Shown: in pieces, positions 41,171 through 46,672 of the stretch
Layout: every line of letters begins with the position of its first letter
How positions within the stretch are numbered: position 1 is the stretch's first letter
Assembly (NCBI RefSeq): GCF_025996515.1
Contig: NZ_BLRH01000035.1
Span: 682,001-746,000, forward strand
From: Rhizohabitans arisaemae
Lineage (GTDB): Bacteria > Actinomycetota > Actinomycetes > Streptosporangiales > Streptosporangiaceae
Length of the DNA stretch: 64,000 bases
Direction of reading: 5' to 3'
Notes under the pieces: generated by a model
The model's database searches: none
What the model saw: only the letters and a program-made list of their open reading frames with translations
What the model was told of the DNA's origin: nothing
Made by a program: the position numbers and the translations under genes

Positions 41171-42385
41171 GTGTCACTACGCGACGACGCCAGCGCGCTT
41201 CAGGACGATCTCGTACGGCTCCGCCACGACCTGCACCGGGAGCCGGAGCTCGGGCTCAGCCTCCCGCGAACCCAGGAGCGGGTGCTCACCGCGTTGCAGG
41301 GTCTCCCGTTGGAGATCTCCCTCGGGGAGCGGCTCAGCTCGATCACCGCGGTGCTGCGCGGATCCCAGCCGGGGCCGACGGTCCTGCTCCGCGGGGACAT
41401 GGACGCGCTCCCGCTGACCGAGAGCCCGGACGGCGACCGGCCCGTCTCGCAGGCGGAGGGCCGGATGCACGCCTGCGGCCACGACCTGCACACCACGATG
41501 CTCGCCGGGGCGGCCACCCTGCTGTCGGGGCGGCGGGACTCCCTCAAGGGGGACGTGGTCTTCATGTTCCAGCCCGGCGAGGAGGGCCACCACGGCGCCA
41601 AGATCATGATTGAGGAGGGCGTGCTCGACGCCACGGGCAGCCGTCCCGTCGCCGCCTACGCCCTGCACGTGGTCTCCTCGCTCCTCGCACGCGGCCGGTT
41701 CCTCTCCCGTCCCGGGCCGATGATGGCGGCCGCGGACACCGTCCACGTGACCGTGCGGGGACTGGGCGGGCACGCCGCGGTGCCCTACCGCGCCAAAGAC
41801 CCCATCCCGGTCGCCTGCGAGATGGTGACCGCGATGCAGACCATGGTGACGCGGGCGTTCGACGTGTTCGACCCGGTCGTGGTCACCGTCGGCAGCTTCC
41901 ACGCCGGCACCGTCGACAACATCATCCCCGACCAGGCCCGCTTCGACGCGACGCTGCGCACCTTCTCCGAGGCCAACCACGCCGCCATCGAGGAGCGGGT
42001 GGTCGGCCTCATCCGCGGGATCGCCGCCGCCCACGGCCTGGAGGTGGAGATCGAGTACCGGCCGGGCTACCCGGTGACGGTCAACGACGCCGCCGAGGTG
42101 GAGTTCGTCGCCGGGACCGTGCGCGAGGTGTACGGCGAGGAACGCTATCTCCCCTCCCCCCAGCCGTTCACCGGCGCCGAGGACTTCTCCTTCGTCAGCG
42201 GGGAGGTCCCCGGCGCGTTCGTCGCCCTCGGGGCCTGCCCCGCGGACCGGGACCCCGCGAACGCGCCGTACAACCACGCCCCCGACGCCGCCTTCGACGA
42301 CTCGGTCCTCGGCGACGGCGCCTCCCTCCTCGCCGAACTCGCCCTCCGCCGCCTCGCCACCACCGGGCCCGCCCCCGACGCGTAG
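41171..42385 (+). CDS. M20-family amidohydrolase (hippurate/IAA-amino acid hydrolase type)
   Basis: 404 residues from GTG 41171, with GGGGG 8 bases upstream and a TATATT-like -10 at about 41133. Metal-binding HACGHDLH (about residue 98-105), FQPGEEGHHGAK with the catalytic Glu, and the dimerisation lid GLGGHAAVPYRAKDP are diagnostic. Cytosolic hydrolysis of N-acyl or aryl-amide amino acids is expected. Its stop codon lies within the first unit of the structured repeat described below. Confidence 0.9.
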   Translation: MSLRDDASALQDDLVRLRHDLHREPELGLSLPRTQERVLTALQGLPLEISLGERLSSITAVLRGSQPGPTVLLRGDMDALPLTESPDGDRPVSQAEGRMHACGHDLHTTMLAGAATLLSGRRDSLKGDVVFMFQPGEEGHHGAKIMIEEGVLDATGSRPVAAYALHVVSSLLARGRFLSRPGPMMAAADTVHVTVRGLGGHAAVPYRAKDPIPVACEMVTAMQTMVTRAFDVFDPVVVTVGSFHAGTVDNIIPDQARFDATLRTFSEANHAAIEERVVGLIRGIAAAHGLEVEIEYRPGYPVTVNDAAEVEFVAGTVREVYGEERYLPSPQPFTGAEDFSFVSGEVPGAFVALGACPADRDPANAPYNHAPDAAFDDSVLGDGASLLAELALRRLATTGPAPDA

Positions 42386-42528
42386 CCCCGCTCCGGAAGC
42401 CGAATCATGGCCGGTAAGCCCGAGACCCCCACGGGCTTACCGGGTTCGGGTCGTGGGTACGGCTGTTGCGCTAGGTCCGCACTTCTCGCGGCGCGGTGGC
42501 TTTCCGCCGCCCCGCCGGTACCCGGCGT
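42382..42528 (+). repeat. Structured intergenic repeat, unit 1
   Basis: About 147 bp beginning at the M20 stop with GTAGCCCCGCTCCGGAAG. Contains a perfect 12-bp hairpin (42411-42422 with 42432-42443), a GGGTTCGGGTCGTGGGTACG element, then TAGGTCCGCACTTCTCGCG and a small CGGTGG/CCGCCG hairpin with a CTTT loop. Homologous units follow directly. Confidence 0.8.
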
Positions 42529-42684
42529 GTGACCCCGCTCCGGGGGTCAGGTCGTGGTTGGCAAGTCTGAGGTTCCCTGCGGGCTTGCCGGGTTCGAGTC
42601 GTAGGCACAGCTGTTGCTTAAGTGCGTTAGGTCCCCGCTGCTCGCTCTGCAGCGGCTTTCCGCTGTCCCATCCGCCCCCGGCGC
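42529..42684 (+). repeat. Structured intergenic repeat, unit 2
   Basis: About 156 bp with the same order of parts: GTGACCCCGCTCC start, 10-bp hairpin GGCAAGTCTG/CGGGCTTGCC (42560-42589), GGGTTCGAGTCGTAGGCAC, a diverged TTAGGTCCCCGCTGCTCGC and a CAGCGG-CTTT-CCGCTG hairpin. A T-A pair of unit 1 is replaced by C-G here (TAAG/CTTA to CAAG/CTTG), so the stem is kept while the sequence changes. Confidence 0.8.
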
Positions 42685-42960
42685 GTAGCCCCGCTCCGGA
42701 AGTCGGATCATGGCCGGTAAGCCTGAGGTTCCCTCCGGGCTCACCGGGTTCCGGTCGCAAGTACGGCTGGATCTTAGGTGCCGGTCGCGCTACGTCCGCA
42801 CTTCTCGCGTCGCGCTCTTTGCGGCGCGAGAATGCGCGCGGCGGTTGGTGCCGCGCGGTCTTTGCGCGGCACCAACCGACCGCGGTCGATGTCAAAAAAC
42901 ACTGTTCTTGTAAGCGTGATCGCACCTAACGCGGTATCGCACGTCCACGGTTGTCACCGG
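42685..42960 (+). repeat. Structured intergenic repeat, unit 3 with long 3' tail (copy E1)
   Basis: Starts like units 1 and 2 (GTAGCCCCGCTCCGGAAG), with hairpin I at 42714-42747, then a 200-bp tail 42761-42960: hairpin A (12 bp, 42802-42813/42821-42832), hairpin B (15 bp, 42842-42856/42864-42878, loop ending CTTT), palindrome CGACCGCGGTCG (42877-42888), then AT-rich ACTGTTCTTGTAAGC and GGTATCGCACGTCCACGG. The tail recurs at 45431-45629. Short open frames across it encode nothing recognisable. Confidence 0.85.
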
Positions 42961-43067
42961 GACGGCTCTTACCTGCCCGAGCCCCGCACCTGAGACCCGG
43001 CAAGCCGAGGCGCCCGCCCCGCGACGATCAGGGCCGAGCGATACGGCGTGGAGCGGTTAGGATTCGT

Positions 43068-43283
43068 ATGGTGTTGTTTCTCGAGATTTTCGGAGTGCTG
43101 GTCGCGATCCAGGGTTTCGGATCGGCCGCGTCGGAGCTGTTCGGCAAGGGCCGCAGCTGGGGTCTGATGGGGATTGCGGAGGACTTTCAACCCTTTTCCG
43201 GCATCCTGATCGGCTTGCTGGGGGTCCTGCTCATCGTGGCGGGGGAGAAGGGCCGCCGGGCCAATCGAGCGAAGAGACAATAA
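43068..43283 (+). CDS. Small two-helix membrane protein
   Basis: 71 residues: a first hydrophobic segment MVLFLEIFGVLVAIQGFGSAASELF, a short polar link (GKGRSWGLMGIAEDFQPF) and a second helix SGILIGLLGVLLIVAGE, with a basic tail RRANRAKRQ. No family recognised. Start at ATG 43068 (AGGA 6 bases before) because the sequence upstream is repeat-like and non-coding in character. Same strand as the SBP56 gene 74 bp downstream. Confidence 0.6.
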   Translation: MVLFLEIFGVLVAIQGFGSAASELFGKGRSWGLMGIAEDFQPFSGILIGLLGVLLIVAGEKGRRANRAKRQ

Positions 43284-43357
43284 CGGTATTCCCCATTGAC
43301 TTGGCGGGGAATAGCGGTTGATTCTGGGGTTCCGGACCGACCCCTAAGGACGTCGTC

Positions 43358-44749
43358 TTGTCTCTGTGGAAGCCTGACCCCACGTTCTATCCCTCCCCTC
43401 GTGACGCAGCCTCCGGCCCCCGGGAGAAGCTCGCCTACGTCGGGGCGTTCGATCGATCGGCGGAGCGGCCTGACGCGATAACCGTCGTGGACACCGACCC
43501 GGAGTCACCGTCCTACGGCACCGTGGTCGGCTGGACCGATCTGCCCCACACCGGAGACGAGCTCCACCACTTCGGCTGGAACGCCTGCAGCAGCGCGCTC
43601 TGCCCGTACGCCCCCCACCCGCACACCGAGCGGCGCTATCTGATCGTTCCCGGGCTGCGTTCGTCGCGGATCTACGTGCTCGACACCAAGGATCGGGTCG
43701 CCCCCGAGGTCGTGAAGGTGCTCCAGCCGGAGGAACTGGCCAAACGGGCCGGCTACTCACGGCCGCACACCGTGCACTGCGGACCGGACGGGCTGTACGT
43801 CTCCGCGCTCGGCGGCGCGAACGGCGAGGACGGACCCGGGGGCATCGCCCTCCTGGACCACAGGTCGTTCGAGGTGCTCGGCCGGTTCGAGGTCGACCGC
43901 GGATCCCAGTATCTGGCCTACGACTTCTGGTGGCACCTCAACCACGACGTGCTCGTCTCCTCGGAGTGGGGGACACCGAGCATGATCGAGGACGGGATCG
44001 TCGGCGAGCTGCTCCTCGGACGGCAGTACGGCCATCGGCTGCACTTCTGGGACCTGCGCCGGCGTAGGCACCTCCAGGCGGTGGACCTCGGCGACCAGTA
44101 CCAGATGGCGCTGGAACTCCGGCCCGCCCACGATCCGACGAAGACCTACGGGTTCGTCGGCGTCGTGGTGAGCGTCGAGGACCTGTCCGCCTCCGTCTGG
44201 GTCTGGTACCGGGACGGCGCCGAGTGGGCGGTCCGCAAGGTGATCGACATTCCCGCCGAGCCCGCTTCGGCCGACGACCTGCCGCCGGTGCTCAAGCCGT
44301 TCGGCGCGGTTCCGCCGCTGGTGACCGACATCGACCTCTCGGTGGACGACCGGTACCTCTACGTGTCGTGCTGGGGGACCGGGGAGCTCAAGCAGTACGA
44401 CGTGACCAACCCGTTCGAGCCGATCGAGGTGGGGTCGGTGCGGCTCGGGGGCATCGTCCGGCGCACCCCCCATCCGGCCCGGCCCGATGAGCCGCGGGCG
44501 GGCGGGCCGCAGATGGTCGAGGTGAGCAGGGACGGCAGGCGGGTCTACGTGACCAACTCGCTCTACGGCTCCTGGGACGACCAGTTCTACCCCGACGGGG
44601 TGGGCGGCTGGATGGCCAGGCTCGACGTGGCGGACGGCGGCGGCCTGACCGTGGACGAGCGGTTCTACCCCGACTTCCGGGGGCTCCGGCCCCATCAGAC
44701 CCGGCTCCAGGGCGGCGACGCGTCCTCCGACTCGTACTGCTACCCGTAG
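43358..44749 (+). CDS. SBP56 selenium-binding protein family, probable methanethiol oxidase
   Basis: 463 residues, TTG start with AAGGA 8 bases upstream. The whole chain fits SBP56/SELENBP1: DPTFYPSPRDA, ELHHFGWNACSSALCPY, HTVHCGPDG, DFWWHLNHDVLVSSEWGTP, FYPDGVGGWM and QTRLQGGDASSDSYCYP. Bacterial members (MtoX) are copper-dependent methanethiol oxidases giving formaldehyde, H2S and H2O2. No signal peptide is visible, unlike some periplasmic MtoX, so cytosolic. Located 9 bp before a membrane protein gene that is probably co-transcribed. Confidence 0.9.
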   Translation: MSLWKPDPTFYPSPRDAASGPREKLAYVGAFDRSAERPDAITVVDTDPESPSYGTVVGWTDLPHTGDELHHFGWNACSSALCPYAPHPHTERRYLIVPGLRSSRIYVLDTKDRVAPEVVKVLQPEELAKRAGYSRPHTVHCGPDGLYVSALGGANGEDGPGGIALLDHRSFEVLGRFEVDRGSQYLAYDFWWHLNHDVLVSSEWGTPSMIEDGIVGELLLGRQYGHRLHFWDLRRRRHLQAVDLGDQYQMALELRPAHDPTKTYGFVGVVVSVEDLSASVWVWYRDGAEWAVRKVIDIPAEPASADDLPPVLKPFGAVPPLVTDIDLSVDDRYLYVSCWGTGELKQYDVTNPFEPIEVGSVRLGGIVRRTPHPARPDEPRAGGPQMVEVSRDGRRVYVTNSLYGSWDDQFYPDGVGGWMARLDVADGGGLTVDERFYPDFRGLRPHQTRLQGGDASSDSYCYP

Positions 44750-44758
44750 AGCCCGTCC

Positions 44759-45385
44759 GTGACGATCACCACGGTGCTCCTGCTCGGCGCCTTCCACGGA
44801 CTCAACCCGGCGATGGGCTGGCTCTTCGCGGTCGCGCGAGGACTGCAGGAGCGCAGCCGCGATCTGCTGCTCCAATCCCTGCCGGTGATCGCGCTCGGGC
44901 ATCTCGGCTCGGTGGCGCTGGTCGCGGTCGTCGTCGGCGTCACCGGTTCGGTGCTCACCGGAGGCGTCGTCGCGATCGGCGGGGGTGTGCTCCTGGTCGC
45001 GTTCGGGCTGTGGCGGCTCCTCTCCCGCAGGCACTTCCGCTGGGTGGGGATGCGTCTCTCCCTGACGCAGCTCGCCGGATGGTCGTTCCTCATGTCGTCG
45101 GCGCACGGGGCGGGGTTCATGCTCCTCCCCGTGCTCACCAGCGTGGAGGTCACCGGGGCACCGGGCCCGCACAGCACGCACGCGCTCTCCGGGGCACTCT
45201 CCGGCGGTCTGGCCGTGGCCGCGATCCACACGCTCGCGATGTTCACCGTCGCCGGGGTGATCGCCGTGATCGTCTACGAGTTCCTCGGCGTGACCGTACT
45301 CCGCCGCGCCTGGTTCAACCTCGACCGCATGTGGGCCGTCGCCCTCGTCGCCGCAGGCGCCATCACCATCGCCACCAATTGGTAG
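44759..45385 (+). CDS. Six-helix membrane protein linked to SBP56
   Basis: 208 residues, GTG start. About six membrane helices; the first holds LLLGAFHGLNPAMGWLFAVARGLQ, a His-containing motif reminiscent of metal transporters, and a second His-rich point MSSAHGAGFMLLPVL. Gene order right after SBP56 suggests a role in supplying or handling its metal cofactor or substrate; this is inference. It ends one base before the second structured repeat locus begins. Confidence 0.6.
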   Translation: MTITTVLLLGAFHGLNPAMGWLFAVARGLQERSRDLLLQSLPVIALGHLGSVALVAVVVGVTGSVLTGGVVAIGGGVLLVAFGLWRLLSRRHFRWVGMRLSLTQLAGWSFLMSSAHGAGFMLLPVLTSVEVTGAPGPHSTHALSGALSGGLAVAAIHTLAMFTVAGVIAVIVYEFLGVTVLRRAWFNLDRMWAVALVAAGAITIATNW

Positions 45386-45629
45386 CCAGCCCTGGTAATC
45401 CCTGCAAGGTTTCCACATCCGTGGTTGCGAGTGCGGCTGGATCCTAGGGCTGGTCGCGCTACGTCCGCACTTCTCGCGCCGCGTACTCTGCGGCGCGAGA
45501 ATGCGCGCGGCGGTTCGCGCCGGACGCCCTTTGTCCGGCGCGAACCGACCGCGGTCGATGTCAGAAAATACTGTTCTTGTAAGCTCGGGTTCCCTTAACG
45601 GGGTATCGCACGTCCACGGTTGTCACCGG
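45386..45629 (+). repeat. Structured intergenic repeat, second locus (copy E2)
   Basis: A degenerate unit start (45386-45430) is followed by a 199-bp tail 45431-45629 colinear with 42761-42960 in the same orientation. Hairpin A (45471-45482/45490-45501) and hairpin B (45511-45525/45533-45547) are perfect. Compared with E1, hairpin B has four paired substitutions that each keep pairing (G-C to C-G, T-A to C-G, C-G to G-C, G-C to A-T). The CGACCGCGGTCG palindrome (45546-45557) and CTGTTCTTGTAAGC are conserved. Confidence 0.88.
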
Positions 45630-45679: not shown

Positions 45680-46594
45680 TCAGCGGGAGATCAACGACCT
45701 CAGGAAGAAGGCGACGTTGGCGGGGCGTTCGGCGAGGCGGCGCATGAAGTAGCCGTACCAGTCCTGGCCGAAGGGGACGTACACCCGGACGGCGGAGCCT
45801 TCGTCGACGAGCCGGCGCTGGGTTTTGGCGCGGATGCCGTACAGCATCTGGAACTCGTAGCTGTCGGGGGTGCGGCCGTACGTGATCATCGCGAGGTGCT
45901 TGGCCACCTCGATCATCCGCTCGTCGTGGGTCGCGATCATGGGTCGCCCCGCGCCCGCCATGAGGATCTTCATGCAGCGGATGTAGGCCCGGTCGACTCC
46001 GGCCTTGCTCTGGATCGCGACGGAGGGCGGCTCCTTGTAGGCGCCTTTGACGAGCCGGACCCGTGAGCCGGCTCGGGAGAGTTCCCGGCAGTCCTCCTCG
46101 GTCCGGTACAGGTACGCCTGCAGCGCCACCCCGACCCAGGGGAATTCGGCGCGGAGCGTGTGGAGGATCGACAGCGTGGAGTCGATCGTGGTGTGGTCCT
46201 CCATGTCCAGGGTGACCAGGATGTTCCGCGCCGCCGCGGCCCGGCAGATCTGGTGCGCGTGCTCCAGCGCGATCTTCTCCCCGTCGCCGGGGAGGGCCTG
46301 GCCGAGGGCCGACAGTTTCAGGGAGACCTCGGAACCGGGTTCGAGCCGTTCGATCAGCGCGAGGTAGGCGTCCCGGATCGCCTCGGCCTGCGGCAGGTCC
46401 AGGGTGTCCTCACCGAGGACGTCGATGGTGACGTCCATCCCGGCGCCGGCGAGCCGCCCGACCACGTCGACGACCTCGTCCAGCTCCTCGCCGGCCACGA
46501 ATCGGTCGACGACACGGCGGGTCAGGGGGGATCCGGCGATTAGCCGGCGGGCCGCGGCGCTCCGTGATGCGCGGAGGAGAATGGATGCGAGCAT
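45680..46594 (-). CDS. putB: Proline dehydrogenase (monofunctional)
   Basis: 304 residues of the FAD-dependent proline dehydrogenase barrel, which oxidises proline to pyrroline-5-carboxylate. Recognisable: VSLKLSALG, LVTLDMEDHTTIDSTL, GVALQAYLYRTEEDC, RLVKGAYKEP, IATHDERMI and YEFQMLYGIR, the substrate- and FAD-binding strands. The ATG at 46594 gives a standard length. Divergent from a PucR-type gene; no pyrroline-5-carboxylate dehydrogenase lies in the window. Confidence 0.93.
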   Translation of the reverse strand: MLASILLRASRSAAARRLIAGSPLTRRVVDRFVAGEELDEVVDVVGRLAGAGMDVTIDVLGEDTLDLPQAEAIRDAYLALIERLEPGSEVSLKLSALGQALPGDGEKIALEHAHQICRAAAARNILVTLDMEDHTTIDSTLSILHTLRAEFPWVGVALQAYLYRTEEDCRELSRAGSRVRLVKGAYKEPPSVAIQSKAGVDRAYIRCMKILMAGAGRPMIATHDERMIEVAKHLAMITYGRTPDSYEFQMLYGIRAKTQRRLVDEGSAVRVYVPFGQDWYGYFMRRLAERPANVAFFLRSLISR

Positions 46595-46672
46595 GTCTGG
46601 ACGGTATGTCCGGGGCGTCACCGGGGAACATCGACAGACGCCACGAATCATTCATACATATGCTCAAGAGCG

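Follow-up and report, generated by a model that had tools for sequence, protein, structure and literature searches.

The repeat units at the locus

The window, which is the whole stretch of 64,000 nucleotides from Rhizohabitans arisaemae that was analysed, carries two copies of a non-coding unit of ~200 bp, here called P. The first copy is flanked by an M20 peptidase gene on one side and a small plus-strand ORF on the other. The second lies between two convergent genes, at 44759–45385 (+) and 45680–46651 (−, proline dehydrogenase). The features are as follows.

42382..42752, +, three tandem ~150-bp connector units (starts 42382, 42529 and 42685; direct repeats D2–D4)
42412–42442, 42558–42591 and 42714–42747, +, H hairpins of the connector units (folds −20 to −21.5 kcal/mol)
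42753..42960, +, P copy 1, 208 bp (model match 150.7 bits; best of 51 genome matches)
42798..42835, +, hairpin A of P copy 1 (structure and covariation; helix 2)
42837..42884, +, hairpin B of P copy 1 (lower stem covaries independently; helix 3)
42885..42959, +, 3' tail of P copy 1 (conserved; matches Q tails on the opposite strand)
45423..45629, +, P copy 2, 207 bp (model match 154 bits)
45467..45504, +, hairpin A of P copy 2 (copy alignment and covariation)
45506..45553, +, hairpin B of P copy 2 (inverted repeat and covariation)
45554..45628, +, 3' tail of P copy 2 (copy alignment)

An earlier note on this DNA had described a ~200-bp element common to the two loci, and alignment gave 86% identity over 181 bp. 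Both copies folded far better than their dinucleotide shuffles (z = −8.0 and −4.7). The 15-bp arms of hairpin B, at 42842–42856/42864–42878 in copy 1 and 45511–45525/45533–45547 in copy 2, are 100% complementary within each copy. As the note had reported, four pairs of this stem differ between the copies, all by double, pairing-preserving changes, and hairpin A keeps its pairing where T-G becomes C-G. The second, covarying hairpin noted in the three upstream units was also recovered, being of the GGTAAG/CTTACC type in each and GGCAAG/CTTGCC in unit 2. The connector units are composed of a small connector hairpin, H, and a P-like 5' segment, which carries a small CTTT-loop hairpin in the first two; the third unit runs into P copy 1.

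A dispersed family of P and Q units

The repeat family proved larger than the two copies originally claimed and far beyond chance. Searched with a covariance model that had been trained on 41 copies of P, the 8.33-Mb genome (63 contigs) yielded 41 strong, full-length matches and some five of lower score, thus about 46 in all, and a DNA search of the same genome with P gave 51 matches; the census was taken from searches of this genome's own contigs. Pairwise identity among P copies averaged 77% and reached 90% in the best pair, which gives no sign of recent movement. Unit lengths varied one base at a time, and the variants were reticulate, with all four combinations present in 94% of distant two-state column pairs. 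The H hairpin was recognisable 5' of P in at least 27 of the 41 copies.

A second, related unit, Q, was seen in the flanks of P. A 201-bp Q query returned 25 matches, 16 of which were essentially full units, and at most Q loci a P lies ~45–80 bp 3' of Q in the same orientation. The conserved parts of the P 3' tail (an A-run, CACTGTTCTTGTAAGC, GGTATCGCACGTCC and GGTTGTCACC) are common to Q in inverted orientation: an inverted copy of the tail lies at Q's outer end, as indicated by opposite-strand matches of the P model (E down to 1e-9) and by tail alignment. Taken on the minus strand, Q is thus related to P through the tail. A QP locus is a ~480-bp compound of two head-to-head units with their tails pointing outward, and these inverted tails produce a terminal-inverted-repeat layout. 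Such pairing occurs at some loci; most copies are P alone, without a clear terminal repeat. In Q (L023 1241–1440, L064 1330–1530 and others), a hypervariable, covarying hairpin is flanked by the internal-loop strands CGTCTTCCCTC and CTCAGTCCAGA, which hardly vary, and the internal loop looks like a candidate binding loop.

Gene context

Gene calls were made with a purpose-written codon-usage gene finder rather than a curated annotation. None of the 41 P copies overlapped a predicted gene; 29 lay in convergent spacers, nine in tandem and two in divergent ones, and one was undetermined. Counted by occupied spacers, 25 of about 35 were convergent, versus 11 among the window's 56 gene pairs with the same finder (binomial P about 5e-11 against the window rate and 1e-8 against one quarter).

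Covariation and strand

The covariation alignment of P comprised 38 full copies and a structure of 40 pairs, with 500 shuffles as the null. Pairing was found in 96.3% of the 1,510 stem cells versus 89.9% in the shuffles, double changes occurred in 20 of the 40 stem pairs, and the covariation score was 0.240 versus 0.127; none of these three values was reached by any of the 500 shuffles. When the partner was slid along the alignment, stem pairing fell to 31–45%. The hairpin B helix showed double changes in 14 of 20 pairs, with 98.1% of cells paired. Pair-breaking singletons occupied 14 of 2,647 stem cells, and shuffle z-scores in P were near −7. The unpaired segments were also conserved among copies.

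A phylogeny-aware null was generated by placing the substitutions of each column anew on a FastTree tree, which is rough because the copies reticulate. Seven column pairs out of 21,945 were significant; three, including the two highest, are proposed stem base pairs, and two more neighbour one. When only the proposed P stems were considered, 20 of 27 testable pairs gave p <= 0.05. The summed stem covariation was 426 in P (null maximum 81) and 199 in Q (null maximum 85). The covariation thus stays significant in the larger alignment of 38 P copies, and the earlier proposal that structure rather than protein is conserved holds, with any one frame open in at most 11 of 37 copies. With no frame open in most copies, a protein-coding reading was rejected. 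A long-range TTAGG/CYTAA helix in P is conserved yet lacks covariation, so it is not claimed.

Two forms of hairpin A occur: in one every position pairs, and in the other, seen in ~10 copies (L073, L015, L011, L072, L026 and others), an A-G mismatch is conserved. Stem B contains persistent G-U pairs. Columns 114–127 read GC in 24 copies and CG in 14, a transversion-type double change with no intermediates seen. By parsimony, stems A and B of P underwent 30 changes to G-U versus 13 to A-C (P 0.014), and the Q stems three versus eight (not significant). These counts hint weakly at a folded plus strand in P and a folded minus strand in Q, which agrees with the homology of the tails. A strand asymmetry in the folding energy of P looked striking and was attributed by shuffles mostly to base composition. 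Neither terminator motifs, including a U-tract pattern, nor promoter motifs were found in the elements, the promoter scan covering sigma-70 types.

Insertion and distribution among genomes

This genome and six others among 24 examined carry an FtsY gene followed by an ammonium transporter gene (amt). The ftsY–amt spacer measures 742 bp here, where it holds a truncated P and a Q, versus 157–247 bp in the six others, one of which is from the same family; no element was present in the parts of the short spacers that were viewed. The difference in length indicates that at least this copy was inserted. It is one supporting instance of insertion rather than a survey.

The earlier suggestion to seek relatives in related genomes was taken up by building the covariance model and searching with it; among 343 genomes of the taxonomic family, the repeats were found in this one only. 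Neither the model nor a 278-nt consensus, for which two candidates were scored per genome, detected a copy in the 342 others. Across 395 genomes of the class, the matches were single hairpins and none was a copy. A 19-base exact pattern matched three times over GTDB, about the number expected by chance, and none of the matches was element-like outside the pattern; very near relatives may be hidden from this search, in which the genus is represented by one genome. Plasmid and phage collections gave no match, and viral contigs gave one P-pattern match that was not element-like and none for Q. A match in another actinobacterial genome (G251) that looked full-length turned out to be an unrelated hairpin. 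That genome contains a dispersed perfect hairpin of its own, GTGGTGGGTCGTGCCGCG-TAGT-CGCGGCACGACCCACCAC (L090, L095, L097).

Comparison with known repeat classes

The statement that no described family matches agrees with our searches. In the window, tRNA-His was the only Rfam match above the gathering threshold; the loci with P and Q gave sub-threshold matches only, and literature searches found no matching family.

The BOX, RUP and SPRITE elements of Streptococcus pneumoniae resemble P/Q in having tens of copies, an intergenic location, strong folding, a convergent bias and no coding capacity (PMC3049150). These elements and IS elements are over-represented between convergent pneumococcal genes, which the authors read as a sign of mobile elements (PMC3049150). 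The modular layout is also shared with BOX, the comparison with its boxA-boxB-boxC modules covering layout and gene context. P/Q differs from all three in its GC-rich host and element, its ~200-bp multi-hairpin units, its head-to-head P and Q, and the lack of a detected target duplication.

REP and REPIN sequences likewise consist of dispersed palindromic units and inverted pairs with compensatory hairpin changes, and prefer unidirectional and convergent spacers (PMC3116915, PMC3733652). REP, however, is a palindrome of 20–40 bp with GTAG or CGTC ends, whereas the P/Q units are ~200 bp long with two main hairpins. Searches for a Y1 (RAYT, PF01797) transposase gave no match in this genome and gave matches in control genomes; a REP/RAYT origin was therefore rejected. 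Bacterial MITEs (NEMIS, ERIC, Nezha, RUP) share with P/Q the size class, the non-coding and folded character, the position next to genes and, in the QP compounds, inverted ends. Unlike them, P/Q has no consistent target duplication and no parent transposon with the same ends, and P stands alone in the majority of copies, whose terminal inverted repeats are poor. The longest words shared between flanks matched the null, except in one copy with a 14-bp repeat. No autonomous transposon with P/Q tails was found among the 63 contigs of the assembly, from which such a partner may be missing: all tail matches were P or Q, bar one at a contig end. Likenesses of the closing stems to retrons, attC sites and group II introns were considered from sequence only, had no tool support and were set aside. 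P/Q works like MITEs, BOX elements and REPINs and fails tested defining features of each, and membership in any of them is not claimed.

Interpretation

The earlier note offered an ncRNA, a MITE-like mobile element or a REP-like structural repeat. The MITE/BOX/REP-like repeat fits best, and the number of copies speaks against a classical single-locus ncRNA. The repeat reading is preferred because of the many copies, the inserted state in one syntenic spacer and the preference for convergent spacers. P/Q is a newly seen family of a known class of small structured genomic repeats, not a gene. We consider it probable that the elements form a lineage-specific family of the MITE/BOX/REPIN type, small and non-coding and with no autonomy of their own, in which one or two homologous multi-hairpin units (P, and Q on the opposite strand) are combined with connector hairpins. 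They would have spread through copying by an enzyme supplied in trans, other than a Y1 transposase, and the folded single strand would be what the mobilising enzyme or the host recognises. Copies may have been retained mostly where no promoter is harmed; those retained would be included at transcript 3' ends, a position from which such hairpins are able to end transcription or shield the mRNA. The elements may act directly at these ends.

Such a role is central to a different account, which we regard as unlikely, in which each copy is a host-useful RNA element that terminates convergent transcripts (in both directions) or stabilises their 3' ends, with its structure selected at every locus. 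The strong convergent bias speaks for it, as do the few pair-breaking stem singletons (14/2,647), the z-scores near −7 in P, the greater tolerance of the P strand for G-U than for A-C, and the QP loci, which present one sense-oriented unit to each converging transcript. The convergent bias is, however, shared by parasitic repeats and IS elements (PMC3049150), several copies have tandem or divergent gene neighbours, there is no U-tract terminator pattern, and 342 related genomes do without the element. The conserved unpaired segments and the conserved internal-loop strands of Q would also suit a multicopy family of trans-acting small RNA genes. That possibility is barely credible given about 46 copies at 77% mean identity, the modular truncated and hybrid copies, the lack of a promoter-like site in a sigma-70-type scan and the lack of an Rfam match.

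The covariation itself permits an unselected origin. Paired changes can also come from conversion between arms or copies, and covariation among paralogues alone is no proof of RNA function. Compensatory changes are common in REPIN hairpins (PMC3116915), which means that the covariation here is insufficient on its own to infer an RNA gene. Arm template switching and inter-copy gene conversion could regenerate perfect palindromes, making the double changes mutational. The reticulate variants (94% of distant two-state column pairs) and several transversion-type double changes without intermediates, such as columns 114–127, are consistent with this process. Arm copying would, however, remove the fixed A-G mismatch of ~10 hairpin A copies and the persistent G-U pairs of stem B, and it leaves the conservation of the unpaired segments unexplained; we find this origin very improbable. 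It is decidedly unlikely, too, that P/Q represents a new kind of mobile element in which folded RNA or single-stranded DNA is recognised by a non-Y1 enzyme and paired P and Q serve as ends.

For actinobacteria, P/Q is an additional repeat family, well populated and strongly covarying, and the genome has no Y1 transposase that would explain it. The family also illustrates that copies within one genome can covary without being RNA genes. If the units have indeed moved, their mobiliser is open to discovery. If they are kept for function, P/Q marks a lineage-specific way to end or protect convergent transcripts.

Shortened and hybrid copies were observed at L069 (around 1500–1640) and L062 (1780–1930), with the 5' half of P fused to a Q half and lone tandem P 5' halves, which suggests recombination or deletion between units. 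The density of P was uneven across the genome, with eight strong copies on contig C13 (0.42 Mb) versus two on contig C33 (1.49 Mb).
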